A stretch of 51,806 bases of DNA from positions 1 to 51,806 of the forward strand of contig JAUHXR010000020.1 of the NCBI GenBank assembly GCA_030426845.1, in the 5' to 3' direction. Of this stretch, positions 4,735 to 11,918 are shown one piece after another (the stretch's first letter is position 1; each line of letters opens with the position of its first letter). Under the pieces are notes generated by a model. It was not told where the DNA came from, did not search any database, and was given only the letters and a program-made list of their open reading frames with translations. Position numbers and translations under genes: made by a program. Source of the DNA: Polyangia bacterium. GTDB taxonomy: Bacteria; Myxococcota_A; Polyangia; Polyangiales; Sandaracinaceae.

Positions 4735-4808
4735 GCGTTGACCGTCCGTTGACCGTCTGTTGACGCTGTGCGTCAATCCGCCGCAGGTGTTGATTTCGCG
4801 GTCAACGC
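4735..4808. promoter_or_regulatory. Array of TTGAC boxes, probable operator
   Basis: Three direct copies of GTTGAC start at 4737, 4748 and 4759, an exact 11-bp period, with the first two identical over ten bases (GTTGACCGTC). Inverted or related boxes follow (CGTCAA at 4771, GTTGAT at 4789, GTCAAC at 4801). The outermost boxes, GCGTTGACC at 4735-4743 and GGTCAACGC at 4800-4808, form a perfect 9-bp inverted repeat. One-turn spacing suggests cooperative binding of a regulator upstream of the Fic-fold gene at 4860. The boxes also resemble -35 hexamers, so overlapping promoters are possible. Confidence 0.55.
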
Positions 4809-4859
4809 TCGGTACTGTTCGCGACCCCGCCGCCAGGCCGGGGTGCCGTGGGAGGTCGC

Positions 4860-5636
4860 GTGCAGGCGCAGAGGCTGGATCAGAGGCTACACATTCTCCA
4901 CGCCAAGCTCGAGGAGGCCGACGAGGAGGCCGTCCGGGGCTATCACGCGATGCTGGATCTGTCGTGGATCTACCACGACAGCGCGCTCGAGGGTGTCGTC
5001 TACAACATGGACGAGCTCCGGATGGCTATCCAGAGCGATACCCCCCCCGACAGCTCGCTGATCCCGGTCTTCGACGAGATCCGCCAGAACCGCACCGCGA
5101 TCGCGCAGATCCGGGAGCTCGCGGACAAGAAGCGGCTCAACCTCTCGCTCGAGCTCATCAAGAAGCTCTACTCGATCCTCGCTCCGGAGGAGATCGAGGG
5201 CAAGAGCCCGCCCAAGTACCGCAAGGACATGCCGCTGCACCGCATGTACTTCCACGACATCGCGCCGCCGGAGAAGATCTCCTACAAGATGCGCCAGCTC
5301 GTGCAGTGGATGAACAGCGCGGAGACCAAGCGCGCGACCCACACGCTGCGGCTCGCGGCCAAGGCGCACTACCAGCTCCTGCACATCTACCCGTTCCCCA
5401 AGCAGAGCGGGAAGGTCGCGCGGCTGCTGATGAACCTGATCCTGCTCCGGGGCGGCTACCCGCCGGCGATCATCCACGCCACCGAGCGGCAGCGGTACTA
5501 CGAGGCGCTCAAGACGAGCGACAACGCGACCGCGAAGATGGTCACCGAGGCGCTCGTCTCGAGCATGGACAGCGCGATCCGGTTCTTCGAGCAAGAAGAG
5601 ACCGCGCGCTCCGGCCGCCGCGCCCGCTCGGCCTGA
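4860..5636 (+). CDS. Fic-fold protein with degenerate catalytic motif
   Basis: 258-residue protein recognisable as Fic family. Near the N-terminus it keeps the inhibitory-helix motif S-x-x-E-G (SALEGVVYNMDEL, about residues 41-53). The core helix context AAKAHYQLLHI...VARLLMNLILLRGGYPP is that of Fic AMP-transferases. The active-site motif, normally HPFx(D/E)GNGRxxR, reads YPFPKQSGKVAR (residues 177-188): the catalytic His is Tyr, the metal-binding acidic residue is Lys, GN is QS, and the phosphate-binding Arg is Lys. AMPylation is therefore unlikely by known chemistry; it is either a pseudoenzyme or has another activity. GTG 4860 is chosen because GGAGGT ends four bases before it; GTG 4848 is possible. 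It stands alone downstream of the TTGAC array. Confidence 0.85.
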   Translation: MQAQRLDQRLHILHAKLEEADEEAVRGYHAMLDLSWIYHDSALEGVVYNMDELRMAIQSDTPPDSSLIPVFDEIRQNRTAIAQIRELADKKRLNLSLELIKKLYSILAPEEIEGKSPPKYRKDMPLHRMYFHDIAPPEKISYKMRQLVQWMNSAETKRATHTLRLAAKAHYQLLHIYPFPKQSGKVARLLMNLILLRGGYPPAIIHATERQRYYEALKTSDNATAKMVTEALVSSMDSAIRFFEQEETARSGRRARSA

Positions 5637-5655: not shown

Positions 5656-6288
5656 TCAGCTCTCCTCGACGTCGCCGCCGGGGAGCAGGTCGATCATGTG
5701 CTTGCCCACGCGGTCGCCGACGAGGGCGAGGCGCGGGGCCTTGTCGAAGTCGACCACCAGGAGCACCCGGCCGCCCGCGTCGCTGAGCATCGCGTAGCGG
5801 GCGCGGGGGCTGGTGCGCGGCAGGTGCTCGCCCGCGGTGCGGACGGTGGCGTTGCCGCGCCGCTCGAGGGTGAGGCGGCGGCCGCCGATCGGCAGGGCCT
5901 CGGGCACCGGGCCACCCGGGACCTCCTCGGTCGGGCTGAGGGTGGCGAGGTCCGAGCCCGCCTCGTCGAGCTGGGCTACCCACTCCGCGCGGGTCGAGCC
6001 GGGGCTCGGGAACAGGCGCATCGCGAAGCCCTCCTCGTCGAGGTCGACCATCCCCGCGAGCCACAGCTCGGTGTCCGCGTAGAGGATCACGTCGCCGACC
6101 CGAAGGCCGCGCGGACCCGCCGGCGCGGGGGAACGCTTGCGCCGCTTGGGCCGCTTGCCTTCGGGCTTGCCGCCGTCGGCGGGCGCGGGCGGCGCGTCCG
6201 GGTCCTGGCTTCGACGCCGCAGCACCACGCGCGCGGCCGCGGCCCCGGCGAGGACCAGCCCCGTGCCGACCAGCAGCTCGAGGATCAC
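5656..6288 (-). CDS. Membrane-anchored protein, possibly DUF4178-like
   Basis: 210 residues. One N-terminal hydrophobic segment (about residues 3-22) is followed by a very basic stretch (GKRPKRRKR) and then a soluble domain beginning LRVGDVILYADTELWLAGMV. The pattern of a 'GD-x-hydrophobic' opening, a WLAGMVDLDEEG strand pair and later small beta-rich blocks recalls DUF4178 domains, but the match is only by eye. The gene starts inside the 3' end of thiE (ATGA overlap), so the two are one transcript. No function can be assigned; I see no enzyme motif. Confidence 0.6.
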   Translation of the reverse strand: MILELLVGTGLVLAGAAAARVVLRRRSQDPDAPPAPADGGKPEGKRPKRRKRSPAPAGPRGLRVGDVILYADTELWLAGMVDLDEEGFAMRLFPSPGSTRAEWVAQLDEAGSDLATLSPTEEVPGGPVPEALPIGGRRLTLERRGNATVRTAGEHLPRTSPRARYAMLSDAGGRVLLVVDFDKAPRLALVGDRVGKHMIDLLPGGDVEES

Positions 6289-6902
6289 GCGGCGCCCCCG
6301 AGCGCAGCGTGGAGGGCGGCCGCCGCGGCGCGCGGGTCGTCTGCGGCGGCGAGGGCGCCGATCACCGCGCCGTAGGCCGCGCCGGCGTCGCGAACCGCGC
6401 GGGCGCGAGCGAGGTCGAGGCCGCCGATCGCGATCACGGGGCGGGCGCTCTCGCGGCAGACCGTGGCCAGCGCGTCGAGGCCGACCACGGGGTCCGGGTC
6501 GGCCTTGCTCGAGGTCGCGAAGACCGGCCCGAACGCGAGCAGGTCACAGCCCTCGGCCGCGCGGGCCTGCTCGAGGGAGTGCGTGGACAGGCCGATCTCC
6601 ACCGCGTCGCCGACCACCTGGCGCGCGTCGGTCGGGCTCACGTCGTCCTGGCCGAGGTGGAGACCCTCGGCCGCGGCGAGGCGCGCGAGGTCTGGCCGGT
6701 CGTTGACCACGAAGGGCACGCCGGCCGACCGGCAGCGCTCGCCGAGCCGCCGCGCGAGCGCGAGCAGCGCCCGGTCGCTCCCCGCCTTGGCGCGGAGCTG
6801 CAGCCGGGCGCAGCCGCCCTCGAGCACGGCGACCGCGAAGCGCTCCGGGTCCCGATCCCCGAGCGCGCGCGGGTCGACGATCGCGTACAGCCCACCCCCC
6901 AT
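6285..6902 (-). CDS. thiE: Thiamine-phosphate synthase
   Basis: 205-residue TIM-barrel enzyme that joins HMP pyrophosphate and the thiazole phosphate to thiamine monophosphate in the cytoplasm. Family motifs are present in order: LYAIVDP at the start, LQLRAKAGSDR (pyrophosphate-binding), VPFVVNDRPDLA, GLHLGQDD, IGLSTHS, LLAFGPVFATSSK, and VIAIGGLD near the end. Length fits the family. It is not next to other thi genes, and I see no TPP riboswitch in the upstream 130 bases. There is no obvious Shine-Dalgarno. It shares a 4-base overlap with the membrane protein that follows. Confidence 0.93.
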   Translation of the reverse strand: MGGGLYAIVDPRALGDRDPERFAVAVLEGGCARLQLRAKAGSDRALLALARRLGERCRSAGVPFVVNDRPDLARLAAAEGLHLGQDDVSPTDARQVVGDAVEIGLSTHSLEQARAAEGCDLLAFGPVFATSSKADPDPVVGLDALATVCRESARPVIAIGGLDLARARAVRDAGAAYGAVIGALAAADDPRAAAAALHAALGGAA

Positions 6903-9990: not shown

Positions 9991-10857
<867 letters not shown>

Positions 10858-10859
10858 CG

Positions 10860-11918
10860 TCACTGCAGCTCGGCGAGGGGTTGGGGCTGGGTGACGCAGT
10901 GGAACGCGCCGCCGCCGGTGAGGATCGTCTTGGACGGACGGCCTACCACGCGCCGCCCCTCGAACAGCGCGGCGAGCGCCTCGACCGCCTCGTCGTCGTG
11001 CGGCCCGCCGTAGGTCGGCACCACCACGGTCGTGTTCGAGATGTAGAAGTTCGCGTAGCTCGCGGGCATCACGAGGCCCTCGTGGTCGTGCACCAGCCCA
11101 GGGCTCGGGATTCGCTCGACCTGCAGCCGGCGGCCCTCGACGTCACGCATCTTGGGGAGCGCGCGCGCGATCTCCTGGAGCACCTCGCGGTTCGGGTCGT
11201 CGTCGCCGCGCGGCTCCATGCACACCACCCGGCCCGGCTCGATGAAGCGGACGAGGGTGTCGATGTGGCCGTCCGTGTGGTCGTTCAGCAGGCCGTCGTC
11301 GAGCCACAGGATGGTCCGCGCGTCGAGCGCCTCGCGGAGCTGCCGCTCGAGGGTCGCCTGGGTGACCCCCGGGTTGCGGTTCGGGTTCAGGAGGCAGCTC
11401 CGGGTCGTGAGCACCGTGCCGCGCCCGTCCGCCTCGACCGCGCCGCCCTCGAGGACGAGCCCGAACGCGAACAGCTCGCAGCCCGCCTGCTCGGCGATGC
11501 GGCTGGCCACGAGGTCGTCGCCGTCGAGGATGTACTTGCCGCCCCAGCCGTTGAACGCGAAGGACGCGGCCGCGACCTCCCCGTCCGGGTCACGCAGGAA
11601 GATCGGGGCGATGTCGCGCAGCCAGATGTCGCCGAAGGGGATGCGGTGGAAGCGCGCGCCGAGGTGGCCGAGGGCCTCGCTCGCCTCGAGGTGCCGCACC
11701 CCGTCGGGCACGAGCACGTGGAGGGTCTCGCCGCGCGGGCGGCCGTCCTCGTCGAGGTCGGCGATCGCCTCGCAGAGGCCGATCATCTCGCGCTGGGCGC
11801 CGCCGAGGTGCTCGGCCCAGAGCTCGTCGTGGCTCGGCCAGGCGACCCAGACGCCCTCGTGGGGCTCCCACTCGGCGGGTTGGCGGTAGCCCTCGGAACG
11901 AGGGGTGCGGGTGGACAT
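10860..11918 (-). CDS. aguA: Agmatine deiminase
   Basis: 352-residue guanidino-group-modifying enzyme that converts agmatine to N-carbamoylputrescine and ammonia. Family hallmarks are WEPHEGVWVAWPS near the N-terminus, the WLRDIAPIF loop, NGWGGKY, LEGGAVEADGRG (acidic catalytic residue), NDHTDGHIDTL (catalytic His) and the C-terminal GGGAFHCVTQP with the nucleophilic Cys. All expected residues are intact. It is the first gene of the aguA-aguB pair, with overlapping or near-touching ends. An arginine decarboxylase is not in this window. Confidence 0.95.
   Translation of the reverse strand: MSTRTPRSEGYRQPAEWEPHEGVWVAWPSHDELWAEHLGGAQREMIGLCEAIADLDEDGRPRGETLHVLVPDGVRHLEASEALGHLGARFHRIPFGDIWLRDIAPIFLRDPDGEVAAASFAFNGWGGKYILDGDDLVASRIAEQAGCELFAFGLVLEGGAVEADGRGTVLTTRSCLLNPNRNPGVTQATLERQLREALDARTILWLDDGLLNDHTDGHIDTLVRFIEPGRVVCMEPRGDDDPNREVLQEIARALPKMRDVEGRRLQVERIPSPGLVHDHEGLVMPASYANFYISNTTVVVPTYGGPHDDEAVEALAALFEGRRVVGRPSKTILTGGGAFHCVTQPQPLAELQ

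Follow-up and report, generated by a model that had tools for sequence, protein, structure and literature searches.

The Fic-fold gene and its surroundings

The window, a stretch of 51,806 nucleotides from a contig of a Polyangia bacterium (JAUHXR010000020.1), carries on its forward strand an open reading frame of 258 codons that is intact from its GTG start, as the original prediction had it. The encoded protein matches the Pfam Fic family (PF02661) with an E-value of 1.2e-13 and a score of 52.1 bits, against a curated cut-off of 24, and is by this measure a member of the Fic/DOC family; a search with the same protein found no NCBIfam model above its cut-off. Its best relatives of solved structure are FICD chains (E 5.3e-21). 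The features of the gene are listed below.

4790..4818, + strand: possible promoter of the gene itself, TTGATT-17 nt-TACTGT, located by eye in an alignment; position kept in two relatives
4860..5636, + strand: Fic-fold gene, probably encoding a pseudoenzyme, 258 aa, GTG start; from the open frame, Pfam and the predicted fold
4977..4994, + strand: DSALEG (residues 40-45), what is left of the class II inhibitory helix motif; from the alignment of relatives
5217..5273, + strand: YRKDMPLHRMYFHDIAPPE (residues 120-138), flap (target-dock) region; from the alignment of relatives
5388..5423, + strand: YPFPKQSGKVAR (residues 177-188), in place of HPFx(D/E)GNGRxxR; from the alignment with FICD and relatives
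5487..5501, + strand: RQRYY (residues 210-214), presumed retained wall of the nucleotide pocket; from the FICD alignment

Although another GTG is present in frame at 4848, the start was assigned to the GTG at 4860 because a Shine-Dalgarno-like stretch, GGGAGG at 4850-4855, fits the latter. The start so defined reads GTGCAGGCGC and is kept in an alignment with two relatives. Conservation in position of the TTGATT-17-TACTGT element in two relatives suggests that the Fic-fold gene has its own promoter; a consensus promoter scanner did not report this element at 4790-4818, and reported no other. Upstream of the possible promoter are three GTTGAC repeats (4735-4764), which belong to inverted repeats with positions 4799-4813 and might constitute an operator, albeit one that is not clearly conserved in the two relatives.

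The upstream genes of the window encode an Omp85/POTRA protein, a short unassigned protein, a histidine kinase with a HAMP domain and a thioredoxin-like protein. Two genes converge on the Fic-fold gene from the downstream side: one has a weak likeness to DUF4178, with a score below the Pfam cut-off, and the other encodes thiamine-phosphate synthase. No neighbour is common to the whole family across the loci compared. A constant operon was considered and rejected, with the Omp85, histidine kinase and thioredoxin-like genes being common only near the window's family. At 5656-6902 of the window and at three other loci (L122, L128 and L130), the Fic gene has near it thiE, a DUF2079 gene and a short convergent gene that is DUF4178-like or a look-alike; these surroundings are common to the window's family (f1) and to f5, and other neighbours differ. 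Elsewhere on the reverse strand (9991-11918) a carbon-nitrogen hydrolase gene adjoins a gene for a PAD_porph-type deiminase, which together resemble an agmatine-to-putrescine pair.

Predicted fold and altered active site

An AlphaFold2 model of the window protein, built from seven sequences, has a mean pLDDT of 80.8 and a pTM of 0.81, with pLDDT below 50 at residues 121-129 and 131-138 within the flap. Its best neighbour in the PDB is FICD with ADP (4u0u; Z 25.4, rmsd 2.3 over 230 residues), and further neighbours are C. elegans Fic-1 (Z 24.7), BT_2513 (Z 24.0), AvrB (Z 10.6) and BepC (Z 10.2). The predicted fold is the all-helical class II (FICD-like) Fic fold with an N-terminal helix, and the fit to FICD over 230 residues agrees with the earlier expectation that the helices flanking the active site are conserved. 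A viral structure library yielded one hit at E≤0.001, to a phage Fic, and provided no lead.

The active-site segment YPFPKQSGKVAR aligns with HPFIDGNGRTSR of human FICD. The core of this segment reads YPFPKQSGK and does not match the AMPylase motif HPFx(D/E)GN(G/K)R; five canonical positions are altered (H to Y, D/E to K, G to Q, N to S and the first R to K), and the motif retains Pro, Phe and its second Gly and second Arg. The original prediction was thus right about the alteration itself, although it had counted four essential positions where the FICD alignment gives five.

Motifs were read in 131 fetched loci (L001-L131) and the window, 132 sequences in all, and removal of seven identical duplicates left 125 distinct sequences. 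HPFx[DE]GN[GK]R is present in none of them. The catalytic column is occupied by Tyr in 69, Phe in 46, Trp in seven, Leu in two and His in one, so that 122 of the 125 have an aromatic Tyr, Phe or Trp. At the metal-binding Asp/Glu column, 74/125 have Lys or Arg and 21/125 have Asp or Glu; the latter are often retained by members outside the window's class, as in FPFDE. The Asn column (the N369 position of FICD) holds Ser, Thr, Pro or Ala, with Ser or Thr in 111/125. Gly184 is kept in 122/125, and the second motif Arg, Arg188, is invariant (125/125).

The one relative with His at the catalytic column, L018 (1501-2238), reads HPFARHSGKLAR, and is nonetheless without GNGR. The genome from which it comes also encodes a Fic with HPFPNGNGR (L184).

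Part of the inhibitory helix motif is recognisable. Among the 124 relatives that cover these columns, Glu44 is Glu in 120 and Asp in four, and Gly45 is present in every one. The Asp40 column, which corresponds to the Ser/Thr of S/TxxxE(G/N) and holds Ser or Thr in most of the aligned canonical Fics, has Asp in 118 and Glu in six, and never Ser or Thr. The inhibitory motif, which had been described as intact, is therefore only partly so: the Glu-Gly of an autoinhibited class II Fic and its partner Arg are there, but the Ser/Thr four residues before the Glu has become acidic throughout. The Glu44/Arg188 pair is the equivalent of E234/R374 in FICD; there Arg374 is contested between ATP and the inhibitory Glu234, which forms a salt bridge with it, according to one study (PMC12974487).

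The flap, YRKDMPLHRMYFHDIAPPE, is unlike the V.I.G..H.PP type of compact canonical Fics and is well conserved near the window. Within it Arg121 is invariant (125/125) and Tyr130 nearly so (123/125). In RQRYY, which we take to be a wall of the nucleotide pocket from its position in the FICD alignment, Arg210 and Tyr213 are each present in 125/125 and residue 214 is always Tyr or Phe. All statements on the pocket of the window protein combine this alignment with what is known of the FICD active site.

Distribution, descent and selection

A first scan with short peptide patterns found six relatives, 55-80% identical, each of which carries the variant motif. The genome counts that follow rest on match scores. 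Of 144 genomes in the window's order, 136 have a match (E≤1e-3), and so do 273 of the 289 in its class (E≤1e-30), usually with one copy per genome. At the same threshold the class counts are 174/178 for genomes with completeness of 90% or more and contamination of no more than 5%, and 142/145 by genus. In a sample of the phylum, 143 of 377 genomes have a match (E≤1e-20), 44 of them outside the window's class in six family-level groups (f28, f36, f38, f47, f49 and f56). The search beyond Myxococcota consisted of one scan with short peptide patterns and a plasmid collection.

No second Fic domain was found above the reporting limit in the window's genome; other genomes of the phylum carry varying numbers of Fic domains. 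The canonical pattern itself missed two of 30 Fic loci (L155 and L162, the latter reading HPYLDGNGR). Of six weak second matches from the search of the order (L175-L180), four fit the canonical pattern, L176 reads HPYIDGNGR, and L180, which has no pattern, was dropped.

A tree calculated without the motif and Asp40 columns splits 41 of the 125 relatives from 14 canonical Fics, four of which are compact ones on plasmids of other phyla, by a single branch with 100/100 support. A wider first tree (58 relatives and 41 canonical Fics, 8 of 49 canonical rows having been left out as short or poorly covered) likewise implies one change, with an SH-aLRT of 70 and with several long branches joined. Tree groups mostly match the family codes, as expected under vertical descent. 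Among 135 close pairs dN/dS (Nei-Gojobori) has a median of 0.08 and reaches 0.26 at most, in a set from which one duplicate (L007) was removed and in which some duplicate genomes (for example L001 and L008) count twice. The close pairs are under strong purifying selection.

Taken with the lone Fic domain in the window's genome, the clade split and the low dN/dS indicate that the motif changed early, perhaps in a single event, and was kept under selection; the variant lineage is older than the window's class. The proposal that the variant is a conserved clade holds up on all three counts, with none of the 125 canonical, a 100/100 branch and low dN/dS. Its counterpart, that close relatives might keep HPFxDGNGR and so expose the window copy as degenerate, was examined as well, and no such relative was found among the 125. 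Decay of an ordinary Fic would account for the loss of five catalytic positions, but hardly for an intact frame or for conservation over the class and six further family groups; we rejected it on the motif counts, the 100/100 clade and the dN/dS of 0.08, and give it next to no credence.

Comparison with known Fic proteins and possible roles

The window protein resembles human FICD/HYPE and C. elegans Fic-1, class II enzymes that both AMPylate and deAMPylate, in its fold, its N-terminal Glu-Gly and pairing Arg, and its R..YY segment. It differs from them in having no TPR domain and in lacking the catalytic His, the acid, the Gly-Asn and the first Arg, and it has a different flap and Asp/Glu for the inhibitory Ser/Thr. 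In size and architecture it is like the compact class II Fics of the BT_2513 type (PDB 3cuc; Z 24.0) and the ∼250-aa Fics on Bacillota and Methylobacter plasmids. Four of the plasmid Fics, with 22-24% identity to it over 237-244 aligned residues, were read, and unlike the window protein they keep HPFxDGNGR; such plasmid genes would be accessory rather than core.

Among the nearest described variants are Bartonella Beps with altered motifs (PMC8401265 and PMC7842960). Where other Fics have the metal-binding acid, BepC and the window protein both have a basic residue; in BepC it is a Lys that stands in for Mg2+, and the BepC FIC domain is reported to act without catalysis (PMC7842960). However, BepC keeps the His and GNGR (HxFxKGNGRxxR) and is secreted and host-targeted, whereas the window protein is single-domain, chromosomal and core. 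The Fics with non-canonical motifs compared here (Bartonella Beps, Campylobacter fetus Fic2 and AvrB) are accessory or host-targeted. By contrast, a His-less Fic-fold protein is here near-universal and usually single-copy across a whole bacterial class. A search of the open-access literature, with subscription journals and preprints mostly outside its scope, returned no paper recognisable as describing this family of Fic-fold variants.

From its sequence, the protein is probably a class-wide core Fic pseudoenzyme. In the family as far as it was read, the catalytic His and the GNGR anion loop are lost and Glu44/Arg188, Arg121, Arg210 and Tyr213 retained, and loss of catalytic residues throughout an orthologous family under selection is one mark of a pseudoenzyme. 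The explanation that we favour, and think rather probable, is that this is an ancient, vertically inherited and mostly single-copy family of class II Fic pseudoenzymes of Myxococcota, near-universal in the window's class, which serves as a housekeeping regulator by binding a ligand or a partner. AMPylation and deAMPylation by the known Fic mechanism would not be expected, because the catalytic His has no functional substitute in Phe, Tyr or Trp. The pocket would still offer a positively charged, Arg-rich surface, and by analogy with BepC the Lys or Arg found at the metal position in 74/125 may bind phosphates in place of Mg2+; this parallel with a FIC domain that acts without catalysis is among the reasons why we favour a binding regulator. 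It might then use the old nucleotide pocket to hold a phosphorylated ligand, the re-evolved and conserved flap to engage a protein partner, or both. Since Asp or Glu is often kept outside the window's class, Mg2+-free binding cannot be general. Further points that count against this explanation are the catalytic-column His of L018 and the want of a family-wide neighbour.

That selection has maintained a function replacing AMPylation, as first proposed, is thus supported by the motif counts, the clade and the dN/dS; the options then named (pseudoenzyme, nucleotide sensor or different chemistry) are not separable by sequence, and a binding pseudoenzyme is the one favoured. The protein could still be an enzyme, a Fido-fold transferase of a sugar or other phosphorylated group that would use the conserved Args and the [ST]-G-[KR] loop. 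The invariance of Arg121, Arg188, Arg210 and Tyr213 would suit such a role, and the Ser or Thr at the N369 position together with Gly184 could bind a diphosphate. There is also a precedent in AvrB, a rhamnosyltransferase effector whose active-site motif departs from that of Fic and which uses UDP-rhamnose, and it is because this Fido-fold glycosyltransferase works without the usual motif that other chemistry is conceivable (PMC10866546); the likeness to the window protein that we see is of fold only. But the model is far nearer to FICD (Z 25.4) than it is to AvrB (Z 10.6), Phe occupies position 177 in 46/125, the motif has acquired no new invariant general base, and genes of glycosyl or nucleotide pathways do not recur as constant neighbours, so we regard a transferase as unlikely. 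Many bacterial Fics belong to toxin-antitoxin pairs, and the protein might be one half of such a pair, either as a toxin or as an antitoxin to another Fic. A degenerate C. fetus protein, Fic2, is still toxic in a His-dependent manner, which also weighs against simple inactivity, and Fic1 has been proposed as its antitoxin (PMC5651007). At the window locus neither an adjacent antitoxin nor a second Fic was found: the genome has no other detected Fic domain, and the neighbours are the Omp85/POTRA, histidine kinase, thioredoxin-like and weakly DUF4178-like genes. None of these four types is a known antitoxin. A near-universal and usually single-copy gene is also unlike mobile toxin-antitoxin genes, and membership of such a pair is very improbable.

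The most widespread neighbour offers a lead to a partner, not proof of one. Of 87 long loci, 24 have next to the Fic gene, and in the same orientation, a gene that we take, from sequence motifs, to encode GTP cyclohydrolase II (RibA); these 24 belong to four families (f16 9/10, f28 8/9, f36 2/2 and f56 5/5), between which the other adjoining genes differ. A partnership with RibA, or a flavin-nucleotide sensor that tunes riboflavin synthesis, would fit this adjacency, and also L104, where the pair is kept although the gene order is reversed. Elsewhere, however, the adjacency is found at none of 61 loci, those of the window's family included, and the RibA match of the window's genome sits on a different contig. 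All 112 genomes sampled from the phylum moreover have RibA, whether or not they carry the Fic pseudoenzyme, so co-occurrence is uninformative. Rfam searches of 20 of the 24 RibA-adjacent loci found no FMN riboswitch, and none was found in the window; and one genome of f16 (L063, genome G340) has the Fic pseudoenzyme and no strong match to a standalone RibA, possibly owing to an assembly gap. We hold a working connection with RibA to be improbable, but keep it as the most specific of the leads open to testing. In its fullest form, which is just as much of a long shot, an ancient AMPylase would have turned early in Myxococcota into a Fido-fold housekeeping sensor or protein partner whose old ATP pocket takes up a flavin or guanine nucleotide, in some members without Mg2+, and which controls RibA and so flavin supply, the pair still standing together in four families.

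A binding pseudoenzyme of the kind that we favour would be a testable case of a Fic domain with a role beyond AMPylation, its pocket perhaps kept as a nucleotide sensor, and it poses the puzzle of a Glu/Arg autoinhibition pair that persists with no activity remaining for it to inhibit. The gene also stands out as a conserved myxobacterial core gene without an assigned role, which annotation blind to the motif would name a Fic enzyme. Examples of the RibA-adjacent arrangement, besides L104, are L061, L087 and L092. The spacing between the two genes ranges from an overlap or ∼20 nt in f16 to more than 300 nt in some loci of f28 and f56, and a single transcript is therefore likely only in some loci.
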